In this document: piece after piece, positions 9,472 to 39,396 of the stretch
How positions within the stretch are numbered: the stretch's first letter is position 1
Layout of the letters: each line of letters opens with the position of its first letter
DNA from: Panorpa germanica
Taxonomy: Eukaryota; Arthropoda; Insecta; Mecoptera; Panorpidae
DNA length: 64,000 nt
Reading direction: 5' to 3'
Assembly: GCA_963678705.1 (NCBI GenBank)
Contig: OY783204.1
Coordinates: forward strand, 26,918,759 to 26,982,758
Translations under genes and position numbers: made by a program
Notes under the pieces: model-generated
Database searches by the model: none
The model's input: only the letters and a program-made list of their open reading frames with translations
Told to the model about the DNA's origin: nothing

Positions 9472-12400
9472 TTACGATGGAGTAGACTTTTCATCAAAAC
9501 TAAAACATCTACTTCTGCGAGGCTTTGGCAATGGATTCCAATCATGGGATTTATCAGTTACTGGATTCAATTTCATATTAATTTCAGCGCGGTGTTTACC
9601 ATTTGAACTAGTAGAAGATATACTTCTATGAAATTCTGTGTAACCATCTTTCACCTCATTATTATTGGCATGGTCAATAATATTATCATAATATGAATTT
9701 CTTATTTCCGGTGTAACTGGTGTTGAAATATTTTCTTCAGTAGGATATGGAGGAACTCCACAATGGTTCAAAGGCGTGCTATTATCTTGCAAAGCTTCCA
9801 ACCATAATTTTATTTGATTTTCACTTTCTTCTAATTGTGCTAATTCTGATTGTACTGCATCTTCAATTGTTTGATTTTGACCTGGTTCATTATTTTTTAA
9901 TTTTATTGTTTCTTCTTCATCTTTTATTCTAGCGATTTCTTCTAATTTACTAGTTTCTTCCACCGTTTGTTGTAGTACTGTATCAGTTCGATTCACACCA
10001 CCCAAATCAACTTGATCTTCGTTTGTTGGAGAAGGGGGTGGTGTATTTGGTGCTTCCGATACTATCACAGTTGGAACAGTATTTAGTTGTTCTGAACTTA
10101 ATTTTTTACCTCGTAATTTTGGCGTTGGAGGAGGACTAGTGGGTAACAGAGGTGGTGTTCCACTTTTGGCAGGTTTTGGTAGTGTTTTTGGTGGAATTTT
10201 TGGTGACGAACCATTTTCTTTTATATTTTCAACAGTAGTTTCTTCTACAACTGTTACAGAATGTACACTACTTTTATTGGATTCTAATGTTTCATTATTT
10301 TCTTTCACTTTTAATCTCATGACACATAAATCACCTTCCAAAGAGCATTCTATAATCCCATTGCTTTCTTTTGATTGACTAGTGTTTTCTTCGGTTTCTT
10401 TTTCATAATTTTCTGCTGCACTTTGGTCCTTTTCTTGTAGACTATTGGTACTTTGTTTAACTTCTATACTAATTTCTTTTCCATCTATATTTTCTTCACC
10501 ATCTTTCTTTGGGGTAGGTTCGCTCAGCTCCTCAGTAATTTTTAACTCAACAGTTAATGAGGAATCATCAGCGGATACATCAGGCTGTTGCGTCTAAAAT
10601 AATATAATTACATTAATAAATATATTAAAGTAAATGGGCTTGTGTCCTCATTTTTTAGTGGTCGATTTTTCAATTGTTGATTGAAATTGATGTTAATAAA
10701 TATGTATTGGCGTGTCTATTTTATTAAATATCTAAATGTTGACGGAGATATAGTAATTAAAAATTTGAATTGTAGTTTTAGCGTTAGAAATGTTCGGCCA
10801 TATTTGTATGACGTGAAATGCATTCTAACGTCAGTTATTTGTTGAGTAGGTCAGTGCTGTGGTAATGTTCTGTAGCTGTTGGTAGTCAAATAATAAAGTC
10901 AAGTCAATGAGTAATAGGTTTTTATTTTATTTAACTCTGCTAAGGCAGACATAATATTGAAATTTTATTGTTGCTTGTAATAGTTGTAAATAATATTTGA
11001 TATATAAATACATATAGCAGAGATTTATGAGCTGTAAGGTTGGAAGCGATTGTGATGTCACATGCATTTGGAATGTGTACAACGTTGAATCCCTTTAATA
11101 ATTAAAAAGACTTTTTTAATTGTTAATATCTCTTAACATATAAGGAGTTATTAAAAAATAATAGTACATTTGAGGTTCTAGTAACCCACTTTATCAATAT
11201 ATAGTACACTTTTATAGAAATTAAGACATAGGACACAAGCCCATTAACATTCATGTTTGTGCAACAACTTTCAAATTATAGTTTAGCTAATCTCTACCAG
11301 ACGTCTCTGCATTATTTGAATATTAGCACAATGCATATATCCGGCCTTCTCATATATTCTTTATTATCATACAAAAGAGAAATTAAGACTGAAAGAGATT
11401 TATGAAGTATTAACGGGTCTTAAGAAGGAAAGGTTTCTAAACTTGCAGAAATGTTTCAAGAGAAGTTCAATGTCAATATTTTGAAATGATTTGGCTTGGT
11501 TCCAAGTTGAGATTTACTTAATGACTAAGGTTAGTAACCTTTATTTTAAATGAATAATCCTGCAATATATTGGTTGGAAACATTACTAAATATTATAACA
11601 AATTATTCAATGTTGTCTGCGTTTATTTATAAAGTCCTAATCACCTGCGGTGGTAAATTAACTAGTTGTGTCTCCATTAATTTTGTATCTAATCTACAAT
11701 ATACCAGAGATAAGAGTTATCAATGTGATTCTTTCATACTATGTAAAGATAACTTCAAAAACATAACGTCTATTGAAGTTGAATTAATTATTTTGCTAAA
11801 TGGAAAACTAGCAAAAAAATGATTTTCAAATTACAATATGTTGTTTTTGATAACATGCATCCATCAGTGATATTGATAAGACATTTATAGGGCAGGTGAT
11901 CACCTTGTGCATTGCATAGCTAAATATTATATAACATATTTATCTTTTAGAATCGCATAACGAATGCGAAGAGTAGATATCTGTAAAGGGCTTGTGTACT
12001 CATTTTTTTGGAGGTCGATTTTTTAATTGTTGATTGAAATTGATGTTAATAAATGTATATTGGCGTTTTTATTTTAATAAATATCTAAATATTGACGAAA
12101 ACATAGCAATTAAAAAATTGAATTGTAGTTTTAGCGCTAGAAATGAATTTTAACGTCAGTTATTTGTTGAGTAGGTCAGTGCTGTGGTAATGTTTTGTAG
12201 CTGTTGGCAGTCGAAATAATCAAGTCAAGTCAAAGAATAATAAGTTTTTATTTTATTTAACTGTTACGGCAGACATAATATTGGAATTTTATTGTTTCTT
12301 GAAACAGCTGTAAATAATATTTGATATTTTGATATATAAATACATATAGCAGAGATTTATGAGCTGTAAGGTTGGAAAGCGGTAAACTTATCAGAGTTTG

Positions 12401-15400
12401 TTCTTATTGTTAAATACTTTTTAAATGTCACGTAAATTCTACAAAGTCTGTAAACGGAATATTTTATGATATAATACACAGGCAATGGAAAATTACGCGA
12501 AAAAATATCCTAAAAAAGTCAAACTTACCACTAGAAGCGTGGGTGGAGGAGGCGCTTTCCTCTTCTTTTTCAACACTCTAGGTGGTCTATCTGGTTCCTC
12601 AAATGGATTTGTGCTTTCTACACTAATTTGAGAACCACTGTAAGAAATGGCAATAAGGATATGTAAGTCTTTCTTAATCAAAAAAATACTAATCTTACAT
12701 GATAAGAAAAATAATTTCATATAAGCTTAACGTATAATAAATAAAGTATGTATAACTTAAAATTTCAAAATGTTTAGTAAAAAAAATATGTTACTTGGCC
12801 CTTACGTTTCATCGCTCTTTTTCAGGGGCGTCGAATGTATAAATCGTGGCTTAGGTGTTGGAGTTACAGATCCGCCGTATACGTACCGCCCCTGGGTATC
12901 TATTTGTTGCTTCCTAGGTGGTGGTACCGACAGCGCATTTCGGGTCATTGGTTCTATATAAATAAAAAGATGTCTTTTTGCATGAAATGGTACAAGAATA
13001 ATTTAATTCGTCAATACGATCAAAAAATATACCTGGTCTGCGAAGTGTTGGAGGAGAAATTGGTGCTGGCGAGGGATCTTTTTCTTTTGGTCCTGATGAT
13101 GTATTTTTACGACCTCGGAAAGAACGCAGTGTCCTAAAAATCAAAGAAATCGAAATTATTATCAGTCTACAGAATCAAATCAAATCAAAATCAAAAGATG
13201 CCCTTTTTAAGAATAAGGAGAATCATAAATTAACTCTTTTATAGCCATTTTTAGCAAAACTTAAGCCTTTTTAATTGAAATATTATTACTAGATATAAGG
13301 CCTTTTTTGTAACTGCTTACGAGACATCTGTTAACTTCTGATGATGTTTCAAAGCCCTATAATTTACAAATTAGGCTGCTTATGCCAGTTTCAAGGTATG
13401 GGATCCATTTTTCTCTTTATTTAAGGTCTTCCTATAGTTTTGTGTAAACTTACATAGCTTAGTTTAGAAAATACAGGCCTTTGAAAAATCGTCAGAAATT
13501 AACATACCTCAGGTAAGCAGTTACAAAATAGACCTCTTAGTTTAAGAAATTATATGTATTTAAGGTGAAACGATACTTGGCCATTTTTTCTCGCGAAATA
13601 TAGATGGCGATACTATACAGCAAGTTAAATATTATCAAAAAAAACATGTTTTTTTATGTTCAAATCGTTTTATGTAAGTAACAATAAACGCGAATCAAAA
13701 TCTAAAGCTGCAATTAGTTAGATGAATAACGTATCTACATTTTAAGCTTTCTTCCACTGACTTTTAATGAGTTGGAACCGCAAAGATAAACATGATTATG
13801 TTTTACATTTAGTGAAGATTATTCTTTAATAAGGAAACCTTGGCTGTGCGAAATGGAGTTGTGAACATTGTCTTAATTTCTATAAAACTCTATTCTATAT
13901 TGTTAAAGTTGGCTATCAGGATGCAATTCGTTCTTTCCATCATTAAAGGGATCAAAATTAATCCTTCATGCCCTTTCTTTTTCTACCCTTCAATCTTTAA
14001 AGTATCCTTCGGACTATACCACTTATTGGGGGCACTTTTCTGTAGTTCTCCACGCATGTATTCGGATACGAGTCTCTCAGGTAGAGTACTTTACCCTTTG
14101 ACCCCTTTTGTAAAGTGACTAGCAACGGGGACACGAATCCCTTTAATCATTTATTGATATTTGACGTTAATTTAAACGTACTAAGAATTATTTATAAAGT
14201 GTTCGTTTCAGGGAATTGCCCTTTCCAGACTTTAAAAAATCAATACTATTGCACGAGACCAAAGGTAACGTTCTTTGAAATTCAGGTGTTCAACAATAAT
14301 ATAAAAGTCAATGTAATTATTCGATGAACCTACCCCTTTTGTTTTTTAATTTATAAAAAAAACTACTGTATTTTCCTATGTTCTGTAATGTTTGTTGTAT
14401 ACTCAAAACATCTACAAATACTATGTAAAAAGTTTGTTGCAATGTATGTACAATAATAGGAAATACAGAGGTTTTATTTGTATCTAAAGAAACCCCTGCT
14501 AAACACAATTATATGTTTCTGTTGTTTATTTACCTAGCCATGTAGTAGTCATAAATTGACGTATTCATATATTTAGAATCATAATCAGAAAATAACTTTA
14601 TGCAAAATTTAACCTTTTCAGATAAAGTATTGCTAGATTTTGTTTAAGTATAATTTTATCAGTATTTAGTTAATAAACATTTTATTCTATAACGCGTACG
14701 TCTATGTCTGTAATAATATAAATGTTACGCAAACTTGTCACGGTTTTAGGCCACCTAATCAGCAGCACCTGTATCTATTCTTAAGCTCCTTACTGATTAC
14801 TTGTTATCTTTATCAGAGCAAGTCTTATCAATAAGTCTACAAAAGCACTGAAACAAGTTAAATAATAAAATTAAACAAATATTAAATTATAAGAATTTAA
14901 ATTACGTTATATTTTTCCTGTTTATAATTGCATTCAAAGAATTGCAAACTAGAAAATTTAATATAATCTTTATTACTATTTTATAAGGGGTTCTAAAAAT
15001 TCATGGACTTTGTTTTCAAAAAGGAAAATTATTGATTTCCTGATATTTTTTGATGCAATTATATCCATTTATAATTAAGAAGACGAACTGCGGTAAAAAA
15101 TTTGAAATATCTAAAGTATTTTGGATTTTATAAGGGGTTCTAAAAATTCATGGACTTTTTTTCCAAAAAGGAAAATTATTGATTTCTTAATATTTTCTGA
15201 TGCAATTATATCCATTTATAATTAAGAAGACGAACTGCGTTAAAAATCTTTAAATATCTTAAGTATTTTGGATTTTATAAGGGGTTCTAAAAATTCATGG
15301 ACTTTTTTTTCAAAAAGGAAAATTATTGATTTCTTAATATTTTTTGATGCAGTTATATCCATTTATAATTAAGAAGACGAACTGCGTTAAAAAATTTGAA

Positions 15401-18400
15401 ATATCTTAAATATTTTGGATTTTATAAGGGGTTCTAAAAATTCATGGACTTTTTTTTCAAAAAGGAAAATTATTGATTTCTTAATATTTTCTGATGCAAT
15501 TATATCCATTTATAATTAAGAAGACGAACTGCGTTAAAAAATTTGAAATATCTTAAATATTTTCGATTTTATAAGGGGTTCTAAAAATTCATGGACTTTT
15601 TTTTCAAAAAGGAAAATTATTGATTTCTTAATATTTTTTGATGCAGTTATATCCATTTATAATTAAGAAGACGAACTGCGTTAAAAAATTTGAAATATCT
15701 TAAATATTTTGGATTTTATAAGGGGTTCTAAAAATTCATGGACTTTTTTTTCAAAAAGGAAAATTATTGATTTCTTAATATTTTCTGATGCAATTATATC
15801 CATTTATAATTAAGAAGACGAACTGCGTTAAAAAATTTGAAATATCTTAAATATTTTGGATTTTATAAGGGGTTCTAAAAATTCATGGACTTTTTTTTCA
15901 AAAAGGAAAATTATTGATTTCTTAATATTTTTTGATGCAGTTATATCCATTTATAATTAAGAAGACGAACTGCGTTAAAAAATTTGAAATATCTTAAATA
16001 TTTTGGATTTTATAAGGGGTTCTAAAAATTCATGGACTTTTTTTTCAAAAAGGAAAATTATTGATTTCTTAATATTTTTTGATGCAGTTATATCCATTTA
16101 TAATTAAGAAGACGAACTGCGTTAAAAAATTTGAAATATCTTAAATATTTTGGATTTTATAAGGGGTTCTAAAAATTCATGGACTTTTTTTTCAAAAAGG
16201 AAAATTATTGATTTCTTAATATTTTTTGATGCAGTTATATCCATTTATAATTAAGAAGACGAACTGCTTTAAAAAATTTGAAATATCATAAGTATTTTGG
16301 ATTTTATAAGGGGTTCTAAAAATTCATGGACTTTTTTTTCAAAAAGGAAAATTATTGATTTCTTAATATTTTCTGATGCAATTATATCCATTTATAATTA
16401 AGAAGACGAACTGCGTTAAAAAATTTGAAATATCTTAAATATTTTGGATTTTATAAGGGGTTCTAAAAATTCATGGACTTTTTTTTCAAAAAGGAAAATT
16501 ATTGATTTCTTAATATTTTTTGATGCAATTATATCCATTTATAATTAAGAAGACGAACTGCGTTAAAAAATTTGAAATATCTTAAATATTTTGGATTTTA
16601 TAAGGGGTTCTAAAAATTCATGGACTTTTTTTTTCAAAAAGGAAAATTATTGATTTCTTAATATTTTTTGATGCAGTTATATCCATTTATAATTAAGAAG
16701 ACGAACTGCGTTAAAAAATTTGAAATATCTTAAATATTTTGGATTTTATAAGGGGTTCTAAAAATTCATGGACTTTTTTTTCAAAAAGGAAAATTATTGA
16801 TTTCTTAATATTTTCTGATGCAATTATATCCATTTATAATTAAGAAGACGAACTGCGTTAAAAAATTTGAAATATCTTAAGTATTTTGGATTTTATAAGG
16901 GGTTCTAAAAATTCATGGACTTTTTTTTCAAAAAAAAAAATTAACATTTTCTTGAAATTTTTTAATGCAGTTCTGTTCCCTATGCTTTAAAATAAATAAC
17001 TGCATCATTACTTTTTAAATATCTAGGCTAGTTTAGCTTTTATGCGACTTTTCTTAAATTCATGGACATTTTTTTCTAAAAAAAAAAATTGCATTTTCTA
17101 AAAAAATTTTGATGCAGTTTTGTTCCTTATGCTTTAAAATAAATAACTGCATCATTACTTTTTAAATATCTAGGCTAGTTTAGATTTTATGCGACTTTTT
17201 TTAAATTCATGGACATTTTTTTCAAAAAAAATAATTTACATTTTCTCAATTTTTTTTGATGCAGTTCTGTTCCTTATGCTTTATAATAAATAACTGCATC
17301 ATTACTTTTTAAATATCTAGGCTAGTTTAGATTTTATGCGACTTTTTTTAAATTCATGGACATTTTTTTCAAAAAAAAAAATTTACATTTTCTCAATTTT
17401 TTTTGATGCAGTTCTGTTCCTAATGCTTTAAAATAAATAACTGCATCATTACTTTTTAAATATCTAGCCTAGTTTAGATTTTATGCGACTTATTTTAAAT
17501 TCATGGACTTTTCTTTTCAAAAAAAAAATTTACGTTTTCTTGAAATTTTTTGATGCAGTTCTGTTCCTTATGCTTTAAAATAAATAACTGTATCATTAGT
17601 TTTTAAATATTTACGCAATTTTGGCTTTTATTCATCTTTTAAAAAATGTCTATGAATTCTAAAAACCTCTTATAAAATCCACAAAAATTAGGATATTTAA
17701 AAATAATTAACACAGTTCGTCTTCTTAAACTGTAACGGATATAACTGCATCAAAATAATTTAAGAAATCAATAAAAAAAATTTAAAAAAAAAGTCCATGA
17801 ATTTTTAGAACCCCTTATAAAATCCAAAATATTTAAGATATTTTAAATTTTTTAACGCAGTTCGTCTTCTTAATTATAAATGGATATAACTGCATCAAAA
17901 AATATTAAGAAATCAATAATTTTCCTTTTTGAAAAAAAAGTCCATGAATTTTTAGAACCCCTTATAAAATCCAAAATATTTAAGATATTTCAAATTTTTT
18001 AACGCAGTTCGTCTTCTTAATTATAAATGGATATAACTGCATCAAAAAATATTAAGAAATCAATAATTTTCCTTTTTGAAAAAAAAGTCCATGAATTTTT
18101 AGAACCCCTTATAAAATCCAAAATATTTAAGATATTTCAAATTTTTTAAAGCAGTTCGTCTTCTTAATTATAAATGGATATAACTGCATCAAAAAATATT
18201 AAGAAATCAATAATTTTCCTTTTTGAAAAAAAAGTCCATGAATTTTTAGAACCCCTTATAAAATCCAAAATATTTAAGATATTTCAAATTTTTTAACGCA
18301 GTTCGTCTTCTTAATTATAAATGGATATAACTGCATCAAAAAATATTAAGAAATCAATAATTTTCCTTTTTGAAAAAAAAGTCCATGAATTTTTAGAACC

Positions 18401-21400
18401 CCTTATAAAATCCAAAATATTTAAGATATTTCAAATTTTTTAACGCAGTTCGTCTTCTTAATTATAAATGGATATAACTGCATCAAAAAATATTAAGAAA
18501 TCAATAATTTTCCTTTTTGAAAAAAAAGTCCATGAATTTTTAGAACCCCTTATAAAATCCAAAATATTTAAGATATTTCAAATTTTTTAACGCAGTTCGT
18601 CTTCTTAATTATAAATGGATATAACTGCATCAAAAAATATTAAGAAATCAATAATTTTCCTTTTTGAAAAAAAAGTCCATGAATTTTTAGAACCCCTTAT
18701 AAAATCCAAAATATTTAAGATATTTCAAATTTTTTAACGCAGTTCGTCTTCTTAATTATAAATGGATATAATTGCATCAGAAAATATTAAGAAATAAATA
18801 ATTTTCCTTTTTGAAAAAAAAGTCCATGAATTTTTAGAACCCCTTATAAAATCCAAAATATTTAAGATATTTCAAATTTTTTAACGCAGTTCGTCTTCTT
18901 AATTACAAATGGATATAACTGCATCAGAAAATATTAAGAAATCAATAATTTTCCTTTTTGAAAAAAAAGTCCATGAATTTTTAGAACCCCTTATAAAATC
19001 CAAAATATTTAAGATATTTCAAATTTTTTAACGCAGTTCGTCTTCTTAATTATAAATGGATATAATTGCATCAGAAAATATTAAGAAATTAATAATTTTC
19101 CTTTTTGAAAAAAAAGTCCATGAATTTTTAGAACCCCTTATAAAATCCAAAATATTTAAGATATTTCAAATTTTTTAACGCAGTTCGTCTTCTTAATTAT
19201 AAATGAATATAACTGCATCAAAAAATATTAAGAAATCAATAATTTTCCTTTTTGAAAAAAAAGTCCATGAATTTTTAGAACCCCTTATAAAATCCAAAAT
19301 ATTTAAGATATTTCAAATTTTTTAACGCAGTTCGTCTTCTTAATTATAAATGGATATAACTGCATCAAAAAATATTAAGAAATCAATAATTTTCCTTTTT
19401 GAAAAAAAAGTCCATGAATTTTTAGAACCCCTTATAAAATCCAAAATATTTAAGATATTTCAAATTTTTTAACGCAGTTCGTCTTCTTAATTATAAATGG
19501 ATATAATTGCATCAGAAAATATTAGGAAATCAATAATTTTCCTTTTTGAAAAAAAAGTCCATGAATTTTTAGAACCCCTTATAAAATCCAAAATATTTAA
19601 GATATTTCAAATTTTTTAACGCAGTTCGTCTTCTTAATTACAAATGGATATAACTGCATCAGAAAATATTAAGAAATCAATAATTTTCCTTTTTGAAAAA
19701 AAAGTCCATGAATTTTTAGAACCCCTTATAAAATCCAAAATATTTAAGATATTTCAAATTTTTTAACGCAGTTCGTCTTCTTAATTATAAATGGATATAA
19801 TTGCATCAGAAAATATTAAGAAATTAATAATTTTCCTTTTTGAAAAAAAAGTCCATGAATTTTTAGAACCCCTTATAAAATCCAAAATATTTAAGATATT
19901 TCAAATTTTTTAACGCAGTTCGTCTTCTTAATTATAAATGAATATAACTGCATCAAAAAATATTAAGAAATCAATAATTTTCCTTTTTGAAAAAAAAGTC
20001 CATGAATTTTTAGAACCCCTTATAAAATCCAAAATACTTATGATATTTCAAATTTTTTAACGCAGTTCGTCTTCTTAATTATAAATGGATATAATTGCAT
20101 CAGAAAATATTAAGAAATCAATAATTTTCCTTTTTGAAAAAAAAGTCCATGAATTTTTAGAACCCCTTATAAAATCCAAAATTTTTAAGATATCTCAAAT
20201 TTTTTAACGCAGTTCGTCTTCTTAATTATAAATGGATATAACTGCATCAAAAAATATTAAGAAATCAATAATTTTCCTTTTTGAAAAAAAAATCCATGAA
20301 TTTTTAGAACCCCTTATAAAATCCAAAATATTTAAGATATTTCAAATTTTTTAACGCAGTTCGTCTTCTTAATTATAAATGGATATAACTGCATCAAAAA
20401 ATATTAAGAAATCAATAATTTTCCTTTTTGAAAAAAAAGTCCATGAATTTTTAGAACCCCTTATAAAATCCAAAATATTTAAGATATTTCAAATTTTTTA
20501 ACGCAGTTCGTCTTCTTAATTATAAATGGATATAATTGCATCAGAAAATATTAAGAAATCAATAATTTTCCTTTTTGAAAAAAAAGTCCATGAATTTTTA
20601 GAACCCCTTATAAAATCCAAAATATTTAAGATATTTCAAATTTATTAACGTAGTTCGTCTTCTTAATTATAAATGGATATAACTGCATCAAAAAATATTA
20701 AGAAATCAATAATTTCCCGAATCGCGTAAACATATAAGAAAATAAACATACACCTGGGATATTATAAATGAGATTAAAAGTTATTTCGATCAAAAACTAA
20801 AAATACGACCCCTAAGAAATGACTCGCAAGCTCGCAGAAATATGCGTAACCTTGTAATGTAGGAAATATTAATTCATCTTATGCACAATACGTCCGTGCG
20901 AAGTATACTGCACATTGACTTGTTTCTTTGGATCTACGCGTTTCCTTGTTTTGCTTGTAATAATTGCTTTGACCTTTGCTCTCCTTATGCTGTTTCTGGG
21001 TTATGCACTTGCTGTGGCTGGACCCGGGCCTCGGGATTATACGATGCAGATTGATTAATTGGTCCCATGATATTCATACTTAAACGTCTACATGTATATT
21101 TACATGATTTGAATAATAATAATAACATTTAGTCGTTGAATTCAAACTTCCTGTTGCAAATTTAGAACAATTGCTTCAGAAAAGTACGTGCCACTATTGT
21201 GACATATTAAATTACAAATTGTTCACTAAGAATACATTAAAGGGAGACAGCAAGAGTTGAAAAGAGAGAATAGACAAATGTTTTTCTATAGTCTTGAACA
21301 CTTTTAATTATTTTTTGTGACCAGAACGAAATTAGGAATGTTTAAAGACTGGTAAATAAATATATTTAAAATATATTGTAAAACCTTGAACTCAGTCTGT

Positions 21401-24400
21401 GACGTATTCAAGTCCATTTATGTCAAAATGGTGAAACCATTCAACGCCCATGGACACCAATCGAACGGCCAATTACTGTGTAACTAAATACCTGGTTGAC
21501 CGAATGCAAATTCTTTGTAATATAATGGAAATAATTTAAATTTGTATTGGTAATAAATAATTTAACATATTTTTTAAATGAGAAATAGTAACGTAATTCT
21601 GTCATCTAAAATTTTTCCTTTTTATTTCAGTTCAAATTGCGAGAGTTCGACTGCGACTTATACTTAAAAGAGCGGTATAAATCTATAATACGGTAATGAA
21701 TTTTATCTTATTCGTTTCTATATACATTATAGAAAAATAAGTGAGTCAGTGCTTTTTAGTTATATCGGCAGTTTATACCCCACAACTTGTTTTAAGTATG
21801 AGTCGCCACCGAACTCTCGTAATTTAAATTAAATCTAACTATTTTATATAATTTTCTTCCAGTTTATAGATATGTATAGGCACTTGTTTAATTATGAATT
21901 ACTGCAGCGTTGGTCTCATGCCTTAATGCAATAACCTTAACATCTGGTCATATGACTTTTCAGATCATATGTTTTATAATTGTTTAGCAGTTTCATTAAT
22001 TAAATACTTGGACATTTTGATAACATCTGCGCTCAAGCGTGACATCTTCTGTTGTTGAATTAATCGAATGATATTAGTAAGATTTTAATCAGGATTTCGA
22101 AATCGGAAGGAATATCTAGAGATAAATACAGTACCAATAACTGCATTGATGAAAGCAAGATCAGACTCTTTGATTCCCTCTCTGGTGTTCATCGTTTTTC
22201 TTCTATCTCTTTCCTTCCTTACCTCCTCTCTTCAGTTCCTTTATTCTCCTTTACTACTTATTTTAAATTCGCATTCCTCTCTTCAGAGTCCTCTCAGATT
22301 TTCCTCGTCTATCCTTCTCTTAGATATGCTGGTACCACCCTCATTTCTTTCTATATATTTTTCGTTTTTATATTACAGACTATAGGATTTTTAACAATAA
22401 CATAATAGGCGATTTTATTGTGTCATATATGTATGTATGTATGTATTTAAATACTTTTGAAAAGTATTTGTGCACATCTCTGCTCATAATGTTTATCATC
22501 AAAAGCATGCAACGTAATTGCCCTGAGACCTAGAAACACAGTCGCTCAAAACCAATTTCAAATCAGTTGTTTCATTCGTGCCTTGTGCGTTCTGTCACTC
22601 ACAACACGCAGATTCGGGGCTTGCGTTTTGCAATCAGCCGACCCATGTGCGGATGGCATAAGGCTCCAAGAACAACCCTGATGCTACTGCTGAGGCACTG
22701 CTTCAGTCTTATCTTAACATAAACGAAGAGAGTGATGTAATCTGACTCGTGGGTAACCTTGGAAAGCTACTTATATTAGGTATTAACTGAAATTAAACAC
22801 GCTGAATTATGTTAGTATTAATTGGTTTTATTACACCTTCCCTTAACAGTCTTAACACTAACAGTGCCCCCTCCTTCGTCTCCAGTTTCGATAAAAACAC
22901 CTCCGTAACATATCTATTACAGACAACATAAAATATCTTAGTATTTAATTTGGTCTCCTATTATGATCCATAAGTATTTAAAAATATTTACCCGAAAATG
23001 TGATTTCATGCTTATTTTGATAATTCGCAGTTCCTATCTTAAGTAAATACAATGATAAAATAATTGTCTGTTTATTCAGCTAATCTATCGAGTAGATAAA
23101 CCTATCGGCTTTACTTCAGACCCACGTTGGGTACCAGTAATGTTACAGTATGTAAGAACCAGGTATTTGCATATTATGTCATATGTTGTTATACGATATC
23201 ATGCAAAAAGAATTTAACTCCATTAAAAAAATAGTTTTATTTTTAAAAATGTTTGGAAGGTAAATATTATTATTGCAGCTAATTAGATATAAAGAGCTCA
23301 TTTTGTCTCTTTAATTATTAAAGGAATTCAACGTTGTACACATGCCAAATGCATGTGACATCACAACCGCTGCCAACCTTACAGCTCATAAATCTTTGCT
23401 ATATGTATTTATATATCAAAATATCAAATATTATTTACAGCTATTTCAAGGAACAATCAAATTTCAATATCATGTCTGCCGTAACTGGGTTAAATAAAAT
23501 AAAAACTTATTATTCTTTGACTTGATTTGATTATTTGACAACCAACAGCTACAAAACATTACCACAGCACTGACCTACTCAACAAATAACTGTCGTTAAA
23601 ATGCATTTCACGTCATACAAATACGTCCGACCATTTCTGGCGCTAAAACTACAATTCAAATTTTTAATTGCTATATCTCCGTCAATATTTAGATATTTAA
23701 TAAAATAAACACATCAATACACATTTATTAACATCAATTTCAATCAACAATTGAAAAATCGACTACTAAAACACAAGCCCATTCGCAATGCAAAAAAATT
23801 AAATTTATATATACAGAATAACATCCTTTTGTTCTCTATTTATTGATCACCCTGTAATAATTTAAATCACAACACTATTATAAAGATATGTACTATATGC
23901 ATATAGATATTATGTATTTATATACGCAAGGATACCAACTTGTCATCGGATTAAAATAACCGTAGGCGTCATTCACAAGCACAACGGACAACGGAATGAC
24001 AATGTTTGCACATAATTACCACTATACAATTGCATCGCTTTATAGATTACTATACAAATTAACGATCTTCAATGTGTATTATAAATTACACGGTATTTAT
24101 AGTATGAGGTTTCGTTAAAAGTAAAAATGCATTCATAAATACTTGAAGTACTTTTAACCTTGTGGGGATCTTTAAAGTTTAAATGTTATTTAAAGCGCCA
24201 TATAGAATAATAAGAAAATATTGTATGGAGATACGACTCTATGAAAGAGAACTGGACTTCTAAGGGATGTGATTGGTTTAAGGTATCCAAAGGTTAACTA
24301 CCGTAGAAATAAATTTCTATATAACGGAATTCTATATAAGAGTCTATTTCTCGCCATGTGTTTTTACAAAAAACTTTTGTAATCAAAAATGGAATAAAGT

Positions 24401-26947
24401 GTCAGAAGCTGGATTCCTTAACCAAGAAATGTAAGATATGTTGGTAGAGATAAGGGATTATGTTTTATAAATTATTAGTTAGAGACACTCATGTCTCTCT
24501 GCATGACGAGTGTCAAAATTTCGCTGCCTCACCTGATTTATAGATATTTATAAGATAATAAATATTTGAAAATAATAAATACGTTTTACGAACAAATTTA
24601 AATAAATAGTGAAATAATTCCTTTTAAAAATGAAATCCAATAATGAAGTCAAACATTCCCCCTATGTGTGTCATTTGATTATTATATTATTGACAACAAA
24701 TATATCAAATATCATTGCTATAGTTCAAATTGTGAGAGTTCGGTGGTGACTCATGCTTAAAACAAGTTGTGCCGTATAAAACTGCGAAAGAATAAAAAAG
24801 TACTGTCTCACTATTTATTGTATAATGTATATAGCAACGAATAAGATAAAATTCACCATCGTATCGTAGATTTATACGACTTTTATAACGTATTTTAAGC
24901 ATGAGTCACCGCCGAGGTCTCGTAATTTGAACTATGTATAAGCAGTAGCCATCTCTGCCCTCAAATGCGGGCCTGGTCTTAAGGCTGCGTTCGATAAGAA
25001 AGTAAAAAGCCTGATCTTAACTAAGACTCTGACGCATTTAAACTTTTAAACGAGTTCTGCATGATGACGTTATGTTCAGCTGTTCTGACGTATGCACACA
25101 GCTTTAGATCACGAAAAAAAATGACTCACTATGACTTTTAGACAGTGTTTTGTAACAGTTACATTGTTTTTGTATCTACACTGTGATAAAGACACAGTAA
25201 ATATTACTATACGGTATTACTATACATAGGAACTTTTGCTGTGTTTTCTATATTATTATATATTTATATAAAATATTCTATAGAAAACTGATAAAATTTT
25301 TAGGTTAATATTTCGCGTCCAATACAAAATTTATCATTTGTCATTTCTATCGACTGATGTCATAAAAACGTCACAATTAGTGAGCGTGACCATGCCTCAC
25401 CGACCATATTTTGATGGATTGCATTGCCAGCAGATTCAATACAATAATGTTATACATTCTAGAAAGTTAGATCACTGCTATTTTTTATAAGTGAGTAACT
25501 ATTTGCTTGTAATTATCCATGCGACCACTCGTTCGCTGTATCACGTCACAAATCGTCATAACTAAACATGGGCGCTATTTTAAGGTCAAGGAAGGCTGCA
25601 TAGTATAATATTTCTATCTCTAACATACTTCTATCTTACTACCAGATGTTGCTTGACCAAATTATCCTTAAATGTATGCACTGCACTGCTGGCTAATAAG
25701 TATTTATTCACGATAATACCAAAACCGTTCTTAAGAAGAAGCGGACTAGGTTCTTACCCCTTTCCTTACACGAATATCGAGTTGTAGTCTAAATAGAATC
25801 GAATCTGTAGTTAGAATAGATTAGATAAAGAAATCTGTTACAAATTTACGCTGGTAAACTGGAAAACATAAAGCAACTGTCCCGTTTGGCCATAACTGAA
25901 GACACCTTTAGTTTCAGACTCCGTTTCCATTTTAGTTTCACTTTATTACTCTTTAGATTTTGCACAGATTTCAGTTAGAAGAGTTTAGAAAACGAAACGA
26001 TTTCGTTAACTATATATGATAGTTTAATAATTTTACTTGTATTGTATAGAGGATTTATGCATGTATCCAAAGTGGTGCAGCGATGAGAGAGGAGAGTAGC
26101 TCGCTTTGTTTACCTCTTAATATGAATAACATAAATTTACGTAAGTCAAAATTCCCCGTCCCCCGGGATTCACCGGGGCAATACATAATAAATACAGCGT
26201 GGGCCAATTAATTTTGATGTACATTTTTTGAACCGTTGTTATAACGAACCGAAGAGAATAGGAAAGAAATAGATAGCATGATACAACTGTTTTTATATGT
26301 TACTATTAATACATTGCTTATAAATAATTGTGTGCTCTTAAAATAGTCACAAAACTTCAATTCGAAAAAGTTAATAAAGCCCACATTTATATTTGTATTA
26401 GAAATAAAGTGATTAGTACATAACAAAGTATCTCAATACTGTATTTTATATCAAAACTAAAATTAAAACGGTAAATAATAAAGTTTTATAGAAAATAAAT
26501 AATCTATTACACTTGGGTTTGATTCGCAGCTAATATAACTTTAATTTTTAGCTAATATAAAATTGTATTAGTTATATATTCATTAGTTTTAAACTCTAAA
26601 ACACCAATTTCACAATAAATTCTAGTTTTAAACATAATAGAACATTCAAAACTAACTTTTAACACGTCGCTACTTGTTTGGTATGTAAGATACTATCATT
26701 AATATTAAATATTTAAAACTGTTATCACTAATATATTTATAAAATAATTTTAAGAATGTAAAAATAAAACTTACATTGCATTACGAATTCCAGAGAAGCT
26801 GAAACTATTCGAACGTCCCGGTTTCTTCCGGTTTATTGTCCAGAATCTTATTTTATTATGATTGTCATCTTCGTAAAACGGATTTAGATGTTCCGGGTAA
26901 TCGTAGATTGACACAGAAGCTCTTCTTTGCGTTTGATTTTGTTCCAT
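9472..26947 (-). CDS. Proline-rich protein with two NPF motifs (uncharacterised adaptor-like protein)
   Basis: Five exons on the minus strand: 26947-26775 (ATG start), 13133-13033, 12953-12806, 12637-12529 and 10593-9472 (stop TAA). Phases run 2, 1, 2, 0 and every border is GT-AG, giving 550 residues. Visible features: NPF at residues 22-24 (LNPFYED) and 151-153 (TNPFEEP); a basic KKKRKAPPPP stretch at 164-173; a proline-rich PxxP region near 308-340; a Glu/Lys-rich, probably coiled segment in the last third; and a basic PLPKPRRS motif near the C-terminus. There is no signal peptide, membrane segment or enzymatic domain. NPF motifs usually bind EH domains and PxxP motifs bind SH3 domains, so an endocytic or trafficking adaptor is inferred. 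I do not recognise the family. TTTATT at 9373 may supply the poly(A) signal. Intron 1 (13.6 kb) contains the 147-bp inverted array. Confidence 0.8.
10634..11244 (-). mobile_element. Repeat family A, copy 1 (full length, 611 bp)
   Basis: Bounded by perfect terminal inverted repeats ATGGGCTTGTGTCC ... GGACACAAGCCCAT. The interior matches the other family A copies. No transposase is encoded, so it is a non-autonomous element (MITE-like). It lies in intron 4 of the NPF-protein gene. Confidence 0.85.
11245..11987. other. Intron sequence between two family A copies
   Basis: Part of intron 4 of the NPF-protein gene. No repeated or coding structure is recognised apart from a 90-codon open frame (11550-11822) without family features. 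Confidence 0.4.
11988..12383 (-). mobile_element. Repeat family A, copy 2 (truncated)
   Basis: Begins with the GGGCTTGTGT terminus and follows the family A interior to GAGCTGTAAGGTTGGAAAGC, then stops. The other terminus is missing. It sits about 0.75 kb from copy 1 in the same intron and the same orientation. Confidence 0.8.
13560..13790 (+). repeat. Repeat family B, copy 1
   Basis: Starts AAGGTGAAACGATACTTGGC and runs through CTCGCGAAATATAGATGGCG and CTAAAGCTGCAATTAGTTAG to GGAACCGCAAAGATAA. Similar copies lie at 34.5 kb (plus) and 58.0-58.3 kb (minus), with a fragment at 60.4 kb. No coding content. Confidence 0.75.
14981..16929 (+). repeat. 147-bp tandem satellite, forward arm (about 13-14 units)
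   Basis: TTATAAGGGG recurs at 14981, 15128, 15275, 15422, 15569, 15716, 15863, 16010, 16157, 16304, 16451, 16598, 16746 and 16893: spacing 147 bp, once 148 because of an extra T. Units are nearly identical and contain AATTCATGGAC, TTATAATTAAGAAGACGAAC and a variable GATGCAATT/GATGCAGTT site. Units 3-6 alternate the two variants, a local 294-bp dimer pattern. Confidence 0.97.
16930..17640 (+). repeat. Diverged 147-bp units at the core of the inverted array
   Basis: Five units keep the 147-bp spacing of the AATTCATGGAC motif (ends at 16920, 17067, 17214, 17361, 17508), but the second half is different: GATGCAGTTCTGTTCC, AAATAACTGCATCATTA and ATATCTAGGCTAG replace the flanking-unit sequence. 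Each has a short internal inverted pair TGATGCAGTT / AACTGCATCA. Confidence 0.93.
17641..20716 (-). repeat. 147-bp tandem satellite, reverse arm (about 21 units)
   Basis: The same unit as the forward arm in opposite orientation (AAGTCCATGAATTTTTAG, CCCCTTATAAAATCC and so on), repeated at 147 bp from about 17675 to 20613. The array stops abruptly at 20716 within AATCAATAATTT, followed by unrelated sequence. The first unit after the switch is diverged, the rest nearly identical. Together with the forward arm this forms an inverted repeat with arms of about 2 and 3 kb. Confidence 0.97.
21629..21834 (+). mobile_element. Repeat family J, copy 1 (MITE-like)
   Basis: Ends are inverted: AGTTCAAATTGCGAGAGTTC on the left, GAACTCTCGTAATTTAAA on the right, with inner GTATGAGTCGCC. 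About 205 bp and no coding content. Copy 2 at 24.7 kb has the same structure. Confidence 0.75.
22385..22668 (-). repeat. Repeat family F, copy 1
   Basis: About 280 bp matching 53400-53700 in inverted orientation: GTGCACATCTCTGCTCAT, AACGTAATTGCCCTG, GTCGCTCAAAAC and CAGATTCGGGGCT are shared. The edge also contains GCAATCAGCCGACCCATGTG, which recurs in direct orientation near 53757. It begins next to a (TATG)n run at 22430. Confidence 0.7.
23295..23782 (+). mobile_element. Repeat family A, copy 3 (left end missing)
   Basis: Matches family A from the CATTTTGTCTCTTTAATTATT region to the right terminus ACACAAGCCCAT. The left terminal repeat is absent. Confidence 0.85.
24722..24932 (-). mobile_element. 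Repeat family J, copy 2 (MITE-like)
   Basis: 211 bp flanked by TA, with inverted ends AGTTCAAATTGTGAGAGTTC and CTCGTAATTTGAACT. Inner arms GACTCATGCTTAAAA / TTTTAAGCATGAGTC give terminal repeats of about 40-50 bp. The TA flanks suggest a Tc1/mariner-type origin (inference). Confidence 0.8.
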
Positions 26948-27240: not shown

Positions 27241-29113
27241 CACGCGCGATAGTGTGTCATATAAATGTAAAACACATACAAGTAAACTCCATGTATATGT
27301 TATGTTATCAACACTACAATACATTCTCACATATGGTAAAATATAGTGGAATAAAATTGTGACAAAAACAATAATAATTTTTATTTTGAAAACAAAAACA
27401 TTCAGATTAAATATTTTTTATGAATTATAATTTGAAATTTAGTGCCAAGCTAAATAAAACAAATTATAATAATTACAAATCAAATTTGAAAATAGACAAT
27501 CAAGTAATTTGTCTTATTTATACAAACTCATCGTTATGGGTTTTTTTAATAGCAATTATTAGTTGCTATTAAAAGATTTAGTATCATATTCAAACTTTTC
27601 AGCCGTTTCTTTTTAGAAATATATAAGTTTCTCCTCACATAAGTTCGCGGGCAAATATTTTACTGAAAGAGTACAATCTAGATACCCATTAGTCAAAATG
27701 GGCTTGTGTCCTATGTCTTAATTTCTATAAAACTGTACCATATATTAATAAAGTTAGTTAGTAATAACTCCTTATATTTCAGGAGATATTAACAATTAAA
27801 AAAGTCATTTTGTCTCTTTAATTATTAAAGGGATCAACGTTGTACTACATTCAAACTGCATGTGACCTCACCTTTGCTATCTCTTTTATACAACAGAGCG
27901 TAAAAGAGATACATTCTTGACAACCTTACAGCTCATAAATCTCTGTTATATGTATTTATATATCAAAATATCAAATATTATTTACAGCTATTTCGAGGAA
28001 CAATAAAATTCCAATATTATGTCTGCCGTAACAGGATTAAATAAAATAAAAACTTATTATTCTTTAACTTGACTTCATTATTTCGACTACCAACAGCTAC
28101 AAAACATTACCACAGCACTGACCTACTCAACAAATAACTGACGTATAAAATGCATTTTACGTCATACAAATGGCCGACCATCTCTAGCGCTAAAACTATA
28201 ATTCAAAATTTTAATTTAACGTTAAATTACCTGTAACATTAACTTTTTTTAAATTCGTTTAACAAGTATTATAAATGGAAATTGAAAATCAGAAGTTTTC
28301 ATTTTTATCAGTTGTACACCACTAAACTCTTTATATTGCTGTTACGTCACCTGACCTTCTTTAATTAGATTCAATTAATTTGCGACTCCGCGTTGTCTTA
28401 ACAACCGCTAACTATTCTGCACCTTTACTTGTTCTAGTTGGTGCAATAAGTAATGAAGCATTAACAAAGTCATTTATTTGAGAGATACAATTCTTTCAAC
28501 CTAATTTCTTTGGAATAGGTTTATTTTGAAGAGGTAAATTAGATACTAAAAAACACAGAGTTTTTGGAGTCAACGAAATATTACCCAGAAAAATATTGAA
28601 TGCTTTTAAAAGTAATATAAGAAATAAGTGACCAACATTTCTATCTCCAATAATGTAGTACATAAACACATCAAATTACTTAAATGAAGAGTAAAGCCAA
28701 GTAAAGCAAAGAGGGTAGATTTTAACTTTTTAAGGGTTGAAACAGAATCACAGATCCCGCCATCTATGGTTCATCACGTAAACAAATACAATGGATTTTT
28801 TTACTTTAATAATTATTTATTGCCTTTATATATAATACATGCTCCTAGCAAGTGAACGTTTTATTAATTAAGATATTAATTTCCTTTTATATAATATTTA
28901 TTATCTAATTTAATATATGATATTTGTAAATTATTTTAGTACTTGATAACAGATGTCTCAAGTTGTATTATAAAAGTGTAGAGTCTCTGTAGTAGAACAG
29001 ACGCCATTTTAGTAGCTTTGTAATATTAGTTATTGCAGAAATTGACAGTTGTGTATAAATATTATACTAGTTTATTATATTTTAAAATAAAGTTTATACA
29101 ATAAATATTCAAA
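27241..29113. other. Intergenic region between the NPF-protein gene and SF3B6
   Basis: Divergent spacer. It holds family A copy 4 (27698-28218) and otherwise AT-rich sequence with no gene recognised. Just before SF3B6, GCCATTTT at 29003-29010 resembles a YY1/Pho core (GCCAT), a common element near housekeeping gene starts; promoter use is an inference. Confidence 0.4.
27698..28218 (+). mobile_element. Repeat family A, copy 4 (right end missing)
   Basis: Begins with the full terminus ATGGGCTTGTGTCCTATG and follows family A to AAAATTTTAATT, after which the match is lost. It carries an extra short insertion near 27880-27925 (ATCTCTTTTATACAACAGAG). Confidence 0.85.
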
Positions 29114-30594: not shown

Positions 30595-31580
30595 GATCTG
30601 CTACAGGATATAAACAAGGTTTGACACTATTCATTTTATTATTATAAACATTTTTACATGTATATATATGTATATTCAATTTATTTGTTATTTCACTTCT
30701 ATAACAACAACAAAATGATACTTATTTTAAATTAAAAATAGTCATTGTATACCTTTTGTGTATAATATAGTGAATATATTATTCGTCAGACATGTCATTA
30801 GGTATAAAAAATAATGGCATGGTCGTCGTAATTATATTTTGTTTGTATTGTGACCATACACTGTGGATCTTGGATTGTATATAAGCACTATACTATCGTC
30901 TTGCAGTGTTTTATATTCTGTTAAATACATATTTACATATGTTGTATGTATATATTTAAATTTAACAGTTTAAATATGTTTACTAACGCAATGCTTATCT
31001 TCCTTGGGTGTTCTTATCACTCTTTGGTTATAACTGAACGTTTTACCCTTCGCCCAAAATACACAGTATTAATATAAAATATATATTGATGTTTTTTATA
31101 TAAACATTTATAATACTTTTTTATTATTAATTTTATGGCATGTTTCCGATAGAAGCACATGGATTTAGTTTTAGTTTTTGGTTGTAGCTATAGATATTCG
31201 TCATAATATATATAATCTTTAGGGAAATTTGTTATTTATTTACATTAGCTATTCTACTATATAAACATTGTATAATAGTTAAATAACATACATTCAGATA
31301 TATAATCATAAAATTTTCTTGTATTTTATTATAAATAAATTGTAACCCGTTGTCCATGAAATCTTTAGCACAAAGAAGTTCTGTACGATGTTGCATCTAT
31401 TCCAGAAAGTTTGGAAATGTAAGATTGTGTGTAGAACCTAAAGCGGTACTTTGATTTACATATGTATGAACCATATTATAAAATACAGGCTTCTTCGATA
31501 CAGTGGTGTTACATTAATTGCAATTCTTGTCATAATAGTTTGTTTCAGTGTAGGGTACTATTATACTTTTGTTATAGATA
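30595..31580. other. AT-rich region after the small membrane-protein frame
   Basis: No gene or repeat recognised. It may be 3' UTR, with several AATAAA-like sites, or plain intergenic sequence. Confidence 0.3.
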
Positions 31581-32093
31581 ATGGGCTTGTGTCCTATGTC
31601 TTAATTTCTATAAAAGTGTACTATATATTGATAAAGTGGGTTACTAGAACCTAAAATGTCCAATTATTTTTTAGTAACTCCTCATATGTTAGGAGATATT
31701 AACAATTAAAAAAGTAATTTTGTCTCTTTAATAATTAAAGAGATTCAACGTTGTCCACATTCCTAGTGCATGTGACATCACAATCCTTGTGTAAGGTTAC
31801 CAACCTTACAGCTCATAAACAAGAGCTCTGCTATAAGTATTTATATATCACAATATCAAAGAATATTTACAGCTATTTCAAGGAACAAATAACTGATGTT
31901 AAAATGCATTTCACGTCATACAAATATGGCCGACCATTTCTAGCGCTAAAACTAAAATTCAAACTTTTAATTGCTATATCTCCGTCAACATTTAGATATT
32001 TAATAAAATAGACACACCAATACACATTTATTAACTTCAATTTCAATCAACAATTGAAAAATCGACCACTAAAAAATGAGAACACAAGCCCAT
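31581..32093 (+). mobile_element. Repeat family A, copy 5 (both ends, internally deleted)
   Basis: Both termini ATGGGCTTGTGTCC and CACAAGCCCAT are present. At 513 bp it lacks about 110 bp found in longer copies: the part with CATTACCACAGCACTGACC is missing between CAAGGAACAA and ATAACTGATG. Confidence 0.9.
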
Positions 32094-33450
32094 TAATTTG
32101 TAGTATATTTGCTAAAGTAAAGTTTCAAACCATATGGAACGTCTTCTACATATCTTCAGTGGTGTAAAATTGAGTGGGGCACATTTATTATCAAGTTTTC
32201 GTGTAATATTTGCTTTTGCTTCTTATCTTATAGCTACGGTTCTATTTTTTTTCTATTTTATAAAGTTATTATCTTGAAAGATCTATAGTCTCTAAAAGAA
32301 AACAAATTTTAGGTGAGTGTGCTATATTAGGGAAGACTATAGTCTTCCATCTAATCATCCTGAAGATTTTTAAGCTAATGTTTCTCATATTGCTGAAAAA
32401 TGCGACGACCGTGTATATTAAATAATATTATTAAACACATAAGATTTATTTAATATGAAAAAGTATACCATGTACATAATTTGTTTTATGTTAATATAAT
32501 GTAAGATTACCTAACTAAAATTACAATGTTTCTTTTCTGACGTTAATAAAGATTCTTATGTAAGATTTTATAGTGTTAGATATTAAAATAATATATTTAT
32601 AATATTTGCCACTGCTGCGCCAAAGCAGTGTTAACCATTTTAGAAATCAAATTTAATATTTATCTTAAGTTTTATAAAATTCTAATAAATATTGGTAAAG
32701 TTCATAAAGCAGGCGCACATGAAGGGTTACCATGACGGTAATACGTATAGTGAACTAACAATTTTATATTTCTAGTACACCTGAAAATCGATTAAAATAT
32801 AAAGTACGTAAAAAACCTTTTACTTTGTCAGTTTAACGTTCACTTTCCTCTGTTTACAGAATTTGAGTTTCGAAGCACTTTTCTTCCAACCGGTTTTTTA
32901 AATACATATTTTTTTATTATTTCTGCAGTTTACTAGATAGGAATTTTTTCTTCAGTTCGCAGACTCTGAGGACCACAACCTTGAACTGATTCGAAACTTA
33001 AACATAGCATTCAGTGTTGCAAACAAGTTATTAATAAATGTAATTTCGAAAATTGAAAAATTATTAAACCATCTTTTGTGAGATTGATTTGCCTTTTGTT
33101 TAGTTGTATCTAGCTTTGTAACTATTAACAATTGATGAATCACCAATTGAAATCTTCTTAATTAACAATCGTATGTTGTTGTTGCCAACAATCCGTAATC
33201 AAGAATCAACTATGGAATGCGTCTATTGGTTGTTTTATGACTTTTAATTTCAATTGATCATTTTTTTATTGTATCATATTAATATCAATTTATATATATT
33301 TTTTTATTTGACAACTTTCAATTATATTCAGTACATCCCAGTTCAAAATTTTCTTATTATTTATTCTATTGTTCTATGGCGAAAGTTTATAGGGTAGACC
33401 TGTTCTTTTTTGTTAAGAGTGCTGTAAAATAATAACAAACAAAATAACAG
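32094..33450. other. Gene-free AT-rich stretch
   Basis: Nothing recognised: no conserved reading frame and no match to the repeat families of this window. Confidence 0.4.
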
Positions 33451-38116: not shown

Positions 38117-38553
38117 TTTTTCCGTTAATCCAGTTCTCCAGTTAAATTTCAAAAATCCTATAACGTTATCCTTATAATCCTGGTATTACATGATTCCAAA
38201 AATCCAATAAATATGTTTCCGAGATATGAACGAATCCTCTTCTCTTCTATCGCGATGTTTTATTATTAAATGAGTTACTACAATCAGATATTATGCGTTT
38301 GCGTGTACATGCGTGCGCGAGTTTCAACTTTAGTACGATGTATGAAACATATGAATAATAATTTGTTCAAGTCGACTACTACAATTCGTGAAGAGCTATT
38401 TGTTTATGGATAAATCGAATATCGTAGTAGGTGTTTTAAGGAATATCAGCACGGCTAGATTAGCAACGTATTAGAAAAAATGAGCCGTAATGTTTATAAC
38501 AGGTGTACACAACTTAAAGTACGAGGGCTGATAACTGCTTGTTGGTACAAACA

Positions 38554-39113
38554 ATGGGCTAGTGCCCTATGTCTTAATTTCTATAAAAGAGTACTATATA
38601 TTTATAAAGTTGGTTACTAGAACTTTAAATGTTCAATTATTTTTTAATAACTCCTTATATGTTAAGAGATATTAACAATTAAAAAAGTCATTTTGTCTCT
38701 TTAATTATTAAGGGGATTCAACGTTGTACACATTCCAAGTGCATGTGACATCACAATCCTTGTGTAAGGTTACCAACCTTACACATAAATCTCTGCTATA
38801 TGTATTTCTATATCAAAATATCAAATATTATTTACAACTATTTCAAGGAACAATCAAATTTCAATATTATGTCTGCCTTAGCAGGGTTAAATAAAATAAA
38901 AACTTATTATTCTTTAACTTGACTTGATTATTTGCCTACCAACAGCTATAGAACATTACCACAGCACTGATCTACTCAACAAATAACTGACGTAAAAATG
39001 CATTCACGTCATACAAATATGGCCGACCATTTCTAGCGCTAAAACTACAATTCAAACTTTTAATTGCTATATCTCCGTCAACATTTAGATATTTAATAAA
39101 ATAGACACGCCAT
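38554..39113 (+). mobile_element. Repeat family A, copy 7 (right end missing)
   Basis: Starts with a mutated terminus (ATGGGCTAGTGCCCTATG) and runs through the family interior to AATAGACACGCCATTAC, where the match ends. Confidence 0.88.
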
Positions 39114-39310
39114 TACTTACATCAGTTATTTAATTTTGTTTGTATAACTCTATCTTGAATCAGTTGTGTGTCCTTTGTTTGTTCTCATCGCACAATATTA
39201 CATTTTATCCAGTGTCAATTTTAATACCTATATTATAACATATAGAAACAGAATATATTACGTTAAATAATACATTATCATTAGGGTGACAGCGTGTAAA
39301 TTCCTGTTAC

Positions 39311-39396
39311 CTGTTATAAAATTTATACCAGGTATAAACTGATAATAAGCCTATCGTGCGGACGAGCTTTATACCTGGTATAAATTTTATAACAAG
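39311..39396. repeat. Short palindromic repeat E, copy 1
   Basis: Inverted arms of about 28 bp (CTGTTATAAAATTTATACC / GGTATAAATTTTATAACAAG), each with a smaller palindrome around TATACCAGGTATA, enclose a loop of about 30 bp. A second copy lies at 51624. Confidence 0.85.

Follow-up and report, generated by a model that had tools for sequence, protein, structure and literature searches.

An inverted pair of 147-bp tandem arrays in a Panorpa germanica intron is very probably a truncated copy of a non-autonomous Helitron with foldback-like architecture

Inverted arms built of tandem units are the layout of the foldback transposon FB, the hpRNA loci of Drosophila are long inverted repeats able to give double-stranded RNA, and DINE-TR1 is said to be one of several non-autonomous Helitrons or Helentrons with central tandem repeats. 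DINE-1 and Cg_HINE of Crassostrea gigas are described as elements of the latter kind, and arrays bordered by an element end on just one side have also been recorded (PMC4067079, PMC7492417, PMC8268682, PMC12628747). Helitron arrays of C. gigas run in different directions, and the available portion of that account mentions no fixed inverted layout (PMC12628747). Canonical Helitrons are defined by a palindrome of 16-20 nt that lies about 11 bp from the 3' terminus, on the inner side (PMC4067079), and the arms of the foldback element Tetris are described as holding units of about 220 bp (PMC4079207). In this study we analyse a stretch of 64,000 nucleotides of the P. germanica genome (contig OY783204.1; hereafter the window), in which two inverted arrays of a 147-bp unit lie inside an intron. 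We find it very probable that they are a 3'-truncated copy of a non-autonomous Helitron that carries as cargo two oppositely oriented tandem arrays of 147-bp units, arranged foldback-like on either side of a centre of 50-51 bp.

The array, which the original prediction had placed at 14981-20716, is indeed there, and its span was corrected to 14978-20718 by TRF and unit-by-unit alignment, with the whole element reaching 20773. TRF reported three blocks of period 147 (14978-16969, 13.5 copies, 97% match; 16909-17631, 4.9 copies, 91% match; 17641-20715, 20.9 copies, 97% match), and together with the unit map these confirm forward units followed by reverse units, so that the predicted inversion at about 17640 is real. 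The overall layout of about 14 forward, five core and 21 reverse units also stands, while the recount gives 13 forward units, one hybrid, four core units, a 50-bp centre, and one diverged plus 20 reverse units (Table 1). The core units are of a different subtype and forward-oriented, and the array is therefore asymmetric about the flip. The arms are, as had been claimed, nearly identical: units share on average 0.977 identity inside the forward arm, 0.980 inside the reverse arm and 0.978 across the two (0.972 by another alignment). Beside the duplicated block in the reverse arm, units R08 and R13 have two of their three variants in common.

Table 1. The element and the intron that contains it (positions in the window)
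Feature	Position	Strand	Basis and remarks
Intron 1 of host gene, 13.6 kb, contains whole element	13134-26774	-	Splice signals: donor GTAAGT at 26774, acceptor TTTTTAG, exon 2 begins 13133; frame kept across splice
Left array edge	14978-14979	.	No hairpin/CTAG 3' terminus outside it
Forward arm, 13 A-type units (F01-F13)	14980-16891	+	TRF, unit alignment
A/B hybrid unit, A-like then B-like	16892-17038	+	Unit alignment
Four diverged core units, B-type, 69% identical to A consensus	17039-17626	+	Unit alignment, unit map
50-bp centre with orientation flip; eye-judged counterpart of the 50-51-bp centre of other copies	17627-17676	.	Unit map; 17641-17676 diverged, reverse (unit alignment)
Diverged reverse unit adjoining centre, 0.83 to A	17677-17821	-	Unit alignment
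Reverse arm, 20 A-type 147-bp units, the last partial	17822-20718	-	TRF, unit alignment
Duplicated block, R09-R11 (18851-19291) and R14-R16 (19586-20026), identical variants, 735 bp apart	18851-20026	-	Unit variant table
5' terminal segment of the window copy, 5' TC at 20773, minus-strand A before	20719-20773	-	34-36-bp match plus A/TCTCATTTATAATATCCCAGGTGTATG

Splice signals and the preserved reading frame agree in placing the array wholly inside predicted intron 1, and the element has the same 5'-3' sense as the host gene, both being on the minus strand. Three of the four exon pieces of that gene had no match in Pfam, the fourth having only a match to DUF5538 below the cut-off (E 0.023), and searches with Rfam (gathering cut-offs) and for tRNA genes gave 0 matches. 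The predicted ability of the intron RNA to fold back was upheld by RNAfold, which for the 5741-nt minus-strand array places 2086 of 2575 predicted pairs at spans above 1 kb, so that a transcript is predicted to be able to form a long hairpin. This strong long-range folding and the intronic position would suit a hairpin-RNA locus, in which Dicer-2 would process the folded intron transcript into target-regulating siRNAs and the array would be retained for this role; in larvae of Drosophila, hairpin RNA expressed from satellite repeats is reported to yield siRNA (PMC7214746). Being long, inverted and intronic does not by itself make a repeat a hairpin-RNA gene. As a transposon part the layout is found at many loci, and the array thus needs no local function; since the same inversion recurs at places unlinked to this one, together with transposon ends and, in one insertion tested, an empty site, the claim of an independent hairpin-RNA locus is not supported, and we regard that reading as very improbable. 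Hairpin RNA from the window copy is possible on the folding model, as is double-stranded RNA as a by-product of the intronic copy. The suggestion that 147 bp reflects nucleosome phasing likewise has no support, as the 10-bp periodicity of AA/TT/TA is no higher than in shuffled units (34% of 300 shuffles were as high for A and 56% for B) and unit length is not fixed between copies.

Searching the assembly with one A unit gave at least 444 matches, a lower bound for the family. Of 20 further loci retrieved by their A units, 19 have plus-strand units, a 50-51-bp centre and minus-strand units in that order, the twentieth (L048) being only partly covered by the sequence examined; eight of the 20 (L031-L038) were selected after both strands were already visible there, and among the remaining 12 both arms are present in 11. 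Unit length in the unit map of these loci is mostly 145-148 bp and varies between copies. Five copies of the W type lie distally on C1, at 29.4-30.4 Mb. Such recurrence bears on two readings of the window locus that we consider barely credible. One is a satellite that expanded locally and was inverted by chance, which the unit-level duplications inside an arm would favour, and against which stands the same order with a similar centre at 19 of the 20 other loci, unless the similarity of the centres is convergent. The other is an assembly artefact from a folded long read: inverted tandem arrays are difficult to assemble, but the flanks differ on the two sides, the core is asymmetric and one array-bearing insertion has an empty site, and the order and the similar centre repeat at unlinked loci with different flanks, which makes a fold-back artefact unlikely. 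When the right flank of the window was used as a query with array sequence included, the flank part matched only itself among the 535 matches listed.

The family has the ends of a canonical Helitron, with a 5' TC preceded by A (A/TC, the slash marking the boundary) and a 3' end made of the CCATTGCC/GGCAATGG hairpin plus CTAG/T. Its 3' palindrome reads CCATTGCCAGGCAATGG followed by GGCGAAGAGCTAG; no such palindrome occurs at the window copy, which has the 5' end only. The 3' terminus (the hairpin with GGCGAAGAGCTAG) is present in 14 of 15 sequence stretches examined, 13 with CTAG and one with CTAA, these stretches not being a fair sample (seven came from mutually matching flanks, seven from matches to the 3' region and one from the known 3' side of L050). 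The next base is T in all 14, and across copies the last 40 bp of the element have a mean identity of 0.90, against 0.34 beyond the terminus (chance 0.32). With up to two mismatches, the 22-base 3' end including the T has 161 matches in the assembly and its reversed control 0. Within the array-chosen set the terminus was placed for 12 of 20 loci, two of them by position only, and was not placed for L031, L033 and L035-L040, some of which have little flank. The 5' motif was found in seven of 16 stretches (five preceded by A/TC, two interrupted by a second Helitron) and not in the other nine. The evidence for the 5' end of the window copy is a match of about 35 bp (34-36 bp, 88-92%, to the array-adjoining 5' segment of L045, L049 and L050) together with an A/TC placed by eye. 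No hairpin/CTAG terminus was found beyond the left array edge or anywhere in the window with up to seven errors allowed, and the copy is therefore taken to be 3' truncated. Helentrons and HINEs insert at TT, whereas this family inserts at A/T. Helitron_like_N domains are abundant, 150 of 893 candidates having been scored; the family 3' end was not found in 12 Rep loci of about 3.5 kb each, and no autonomous partner was among them.

Insertion itself can be seen at one site, where a 9.4-kb copy interrupts a 600-bp repeat of which uninterrupted copies lie in the window. When the 5' flank (L043) and the 3' flank (L065) are joined, they match the window's copies of the repeat across an A/T site with no target duplication; eight matches cross the joint, six without gaps within about 15 bp and two with gaps near it. 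At this one tested site, as with the next-base T in 14 of 14 termini, insertion is that of a canonical Helitron. The 147-bp unit was also compared with the 600-bp repeat and a relationship rejected, local alignment being no better than shuffles (133, 111, 19 and 200 of 200 as high in four comparisons).

The same site weighs on a further reading, namely that the element is a classical cut-and-paste foldback transposon like Tetris, with terminal inverted repeats of tandem units, and that the Helitron ends merely happen to lie next to it. The foldback layout as described does likewise consist of a middle domain flanked by inverted tandem arms (PMC4079207), L037 carries a different end motif that is present on both sides and inverted, and B-type elements have a long self-complementary middle. 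Full copies, however, have unlike ends, TC at one and hairpin-CTAG at the other, and not terminal inverted repeats, and the one empty site lacks a duplication, while those of Tetris are given as 8-10 bp (PMC4079207); we hold this reading to be improbable.

Within a copy the two arms are usually more similar to one another than to the arms of other copies. Compared with the mean of the other type-1 loci, a locus's own arms were more alike in 13 of 14 cases, and they ranked first in eight of 14; those of L037 are no more alike than the arms of other loci. Mirror symmetry of unit order between arms had a permutation p below 0.05 in six of 18 loci (L032, L036, L040, L041, L047 and the window) and not in the other 12. 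The orientation of the centre relative to the 3' end is inconstant (L041 and L047 against L032, L034, L042 and L044), which requires arm-to-arm flipping. B arrays also occur elsewhere in the genome, some of them inverted. Terminal units of other copies were considered as a source of the B units and rejected, all ten examined resembling A (0.75-0.82) more than B (0.62-0.73), which leaves only a resemblance at the unit start, judged by eye. For the B-type locus C17 a foldback transposon bearing long terminal repeats was likewise considered and rejected; the locus is a local inverted duplication, because a 639-bp stretch of its flank has just two copies genome-wide, both of them there.

We read the inverted array as Helitron cargo because its architecture is repeated at unlinked loci, comes with transposon ends and has one empty site. 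A single ancestral inversion would have become fixed inside the element, and rolling-circle transposition, driven by Rep/Hel protein supplied by other Helitrons, would then have placed complete copies, bounded by the 5' TC and the 3' hairpin-CTAG, at A/T sites genome-wide. After insertion, unequal exchange may alter unit numbers, and exchange between the inverted arms would tend to keep the arms of one copy alike. The Rep/Hel driver, the single origin of the centre and the truncation of the window copy are what we infer, and inside the intron that copy is probably passive DNA. The single-stranded intermediate would be a hairpin of 5-10 kb, which should be difficult to copy, and the spread of such copies therefore bears on Helitron replication. 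A bolder and unlikely extension is that this Helitron lineage uses its giant hairpin actively in the life cycle: the single-stranded rolling-circle intermediate might fold into a duplex of kilobase size, which would either prime synthesis of the second strand or protect the intermediate, with homogenisation and centre flipping by arm-to-arm exchange as consequences and the B family as a sister lineage of the same design. The family also lends itself naturally to the study of how inverted arrays exchange sequence.

Like Drosophila hpRNA loci, the window array is a long inverted repeat and potential source of double-stranded RNA; unlike them, it belongs to a dispersed transposon family. With foldback transposons such as Tetris the family shares long inverted tandem-repeat arms around a middle domain, and it differs in having no inverted-repeat ends, in showing no duplication at the tested insertion and in moving as a Helitron. 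With DINE-1 and Cg_HINE, as described, it has in common conserved ends, a 3' palindrome, the lack of target duplication and a dispersed internal satellite-like tandem array, and it departs from them in its canonical Helitron ends (TC, CTAG, A/T) and in carrying a pair of inverted arrays that flank a shared centre. No Helitron whose paired arrays keep a fixed inverted layout was found in the literature searched by title and abstract, where absence is unproven. Tandem-array Helitrons are thus already known, and what is new is a fixed foldback-like layout spread by a Helitron, in which two usually separate designs are joined, that of rolling-circle transposons with satellite-like cargo and that of foldback elements with inverted tandem arms.

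The 147-bp inverted array put forward in the original prediction is real, and the feature is very probably a 3'-truncated, non-autonomous Helitron copy with the array inside it, our confidence being lowered slightly because two of eight matches to the empty site are gapped and the sample of element ends is not a fair one. Units of subtype A are 97-98% identical, both within an arm and between arms, and the A and B consensus units share 69% identity. Variants common to reverse units R09-R11 and R14-R16, spaced 735 bp apart, are a sign of unequal exchange. The intronic position originally proposed is likewise supported, since splice signals and an open frame place the array inside predicted intron 1 of the host gene, for which a Pfam search yielded no name.

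Features of the window, in window orientation, and one end motif of other loci (a slash within a motif marks an element boundary)
Feature	Location	Strand or orientation	Remarks
Inverted array	14978-20718		
Forward arm		+	13 A-type units, first in order
A/B hybrid unit			one, after the 13 forward A units
B-type units		forward	four, after the hybrid
Centre	17627-17676		50 bp, after the B units
Diverged unit		reverse	one, after the centre
Reverse arm		reverse	20 A units, the last partial, up to the array end
5' end of window copy	20773	minus	A/TCTCATTTATAATATCCCAGG
Predicted intron 1 of host gene	26774-13134	minus	splice signals, open frame across junction
~600-bp repeat, places 1-5	10630-11250, 11983-12377, 23290-23783, 27697-28216, 31580-32094		
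~600-bp repeat, places 6-10	38553-39116, 40108-40735, 45304-45903, 55090-55664, 61140-61697		
Second Helitron-like end	right flanks of L032, L039, L048; left flank of L049/L050		GACG-GGGGT-A-CTCTAG/T
Imperfect palindromes	13298-13535, 39309-39397, 51617-51712		self-complementary

One A unit has at least 444 matches in the assembly (464 Mb, 249 contigs), and of 20 other places fetched from that match list (L031-L050), 19 show the order forward units, 50-51-bp centre, reverse units; the stretch of L048 is incomplete, so only reverse units are visible there. Eight loci (L031-L038) were chosen after both strands were already evident in the A-unit search, and outside these both arms are found in 11 of 12. 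By eye, the centres of the 14 type-1 loci are mutually alike in either orientation, as are those of type 2 (L043, L045, L046, L049 and L050), and that of the window is a more diverged version. The simplest reading of the common centre and order, we infer, is one ancestral inversion copied along. The B-plus-centre stretch of the window has, among the matches listed, five other full-length relatives (92-94%), all inside a 1-Mb stretch on contig C1 (29425141-30408808), so this subtype looks to have spread locally.

Judged by their sequence, the ends of the element carrying the array are Helitron ends. The flanks of separate copies are alike up to an abrupt stop, and on the 3' side identity falls from 0.90 to 0.34 (chance, 0.32) at one common base. 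A hairpin (CCATTGCC with GGCAATGG), then GGCGAAGAG and then CTAG form the terminus in 14 of 15 windows, L038 lacking it, a count that is not a frequency as the windows were picked for likeness to each other or to the 3' region. The terminal letters are CTAG in 13 and CTAA in one, and T follows in all 14. Of the 20 loci selected purely by their arrays, 12 could be assigned this terminus (L047 and L048 by position only) and the other eight could not. The 22-base 3' end has 161 genome matches with at most two mismatches (reversed control, 0); of the 100 places listed, 17 or more are no further than ~6 kb from a previously placed array. The 5' motif is present in seven of 16 windows, with no match in nine; A/TC precedes it in five, that of the window copy among them, and in L049 and L050 a second Helitron occupies that spot. 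This second Helitron-like end occurs in or beside arrays at A/T-like sites. By a raw tally, many of 150 listed Helitron_like_N domains fall on contigs C2 and C5.

An empty site was supplied by a ~600-bp dispersed repeat, present whole or in part at ten places in the window in both orientations. The copy at C9:690404-699806 (9403 bp, TC to CTAG) sits inside this repeat, ~45 bp from its end, and its flanks, joined at A/T, match repeat copies within the window. Eight matches cross the joint, six gapless within ~15 bp (e.g. 11251-10996, 45303-45569) and two, at 55664 and 27697, gapped near it. Because the joined flanks match uninterrupted copies, the element most likely went in as a single piece together with its array and duplicated no target sequence, as canonical Helitrons do by the definition in PMC4067079.

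We take the window copy to be 3' truncated because its left edge (14978) falls within an A unit and a search of the window allowing up to seven errors detected no hairpin-CTAG terminus. Helitron arrays in which just one side bears an element end are described in PMC8268682 and PMC12628747.

Of the 14 type-1 loci, 13 (all but L037) have two arms more similar to each other than to the average of the other loci, and in eight the locus's own arm ranks first. For A units of the window, the two arms score 0.972 against each other, and no type-1 locus scores above 0.947 with them. Arms of the five type-2 loci are less alike (0.83-0.85) than the units within a single arm (at least 0.895). The centre is oriented relative to the 3' end in L041 and L047 opposite to L032, L034, L042 and L044, as expected if arm recombination flips the middle, though in few copies and with L047 placed by position only.

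Many places carry separate inverted arrays built of B-type units. Two of these, on contigs C17 and C3, have middles that agree at ~91-93%, with self-complementarity of 86-88%, and the B-type flanks on C3 and C7 show no mutual similarity outside the units. At C17:7387700-7394200 (fetched places L071-L074) a B-type inverted array is enclosed by a larger palindrome with 98.7% identity between its outer arms across 1.6 kb; this candidate was set aside as a local inverted duplication, 639 bp of its flank having no match elsewhere in the assembly search.

That array RNA can fold into a long hairpin, as first suggested, agrees with the predicted minus-strand fold, in which 2086 of 2575 pairs are long-range (predicted MFE about -3335 kcal/mol); such a fold would indicate capacity rather than use and is expected of such an inverted repeat. 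The companion idea of ordered chromatin gained no support, the 147-bp period carrying no 10-bp dinucleotide signature above shuffles. Neither function is needed for the layout, because transposition explains it.

Tandem arrays in Helitrons and inverted tandem arms in foldbacks are both already known, and the review PMC12628747 mentions C. gigas Helitron arrays that run in different directions. Among the titles and abstract beginnings listed by literature searches, none described a canonical Helitron that spreads a conserved inverted arrangement, and, compared with the literature at that depth, this combination appears to be new.
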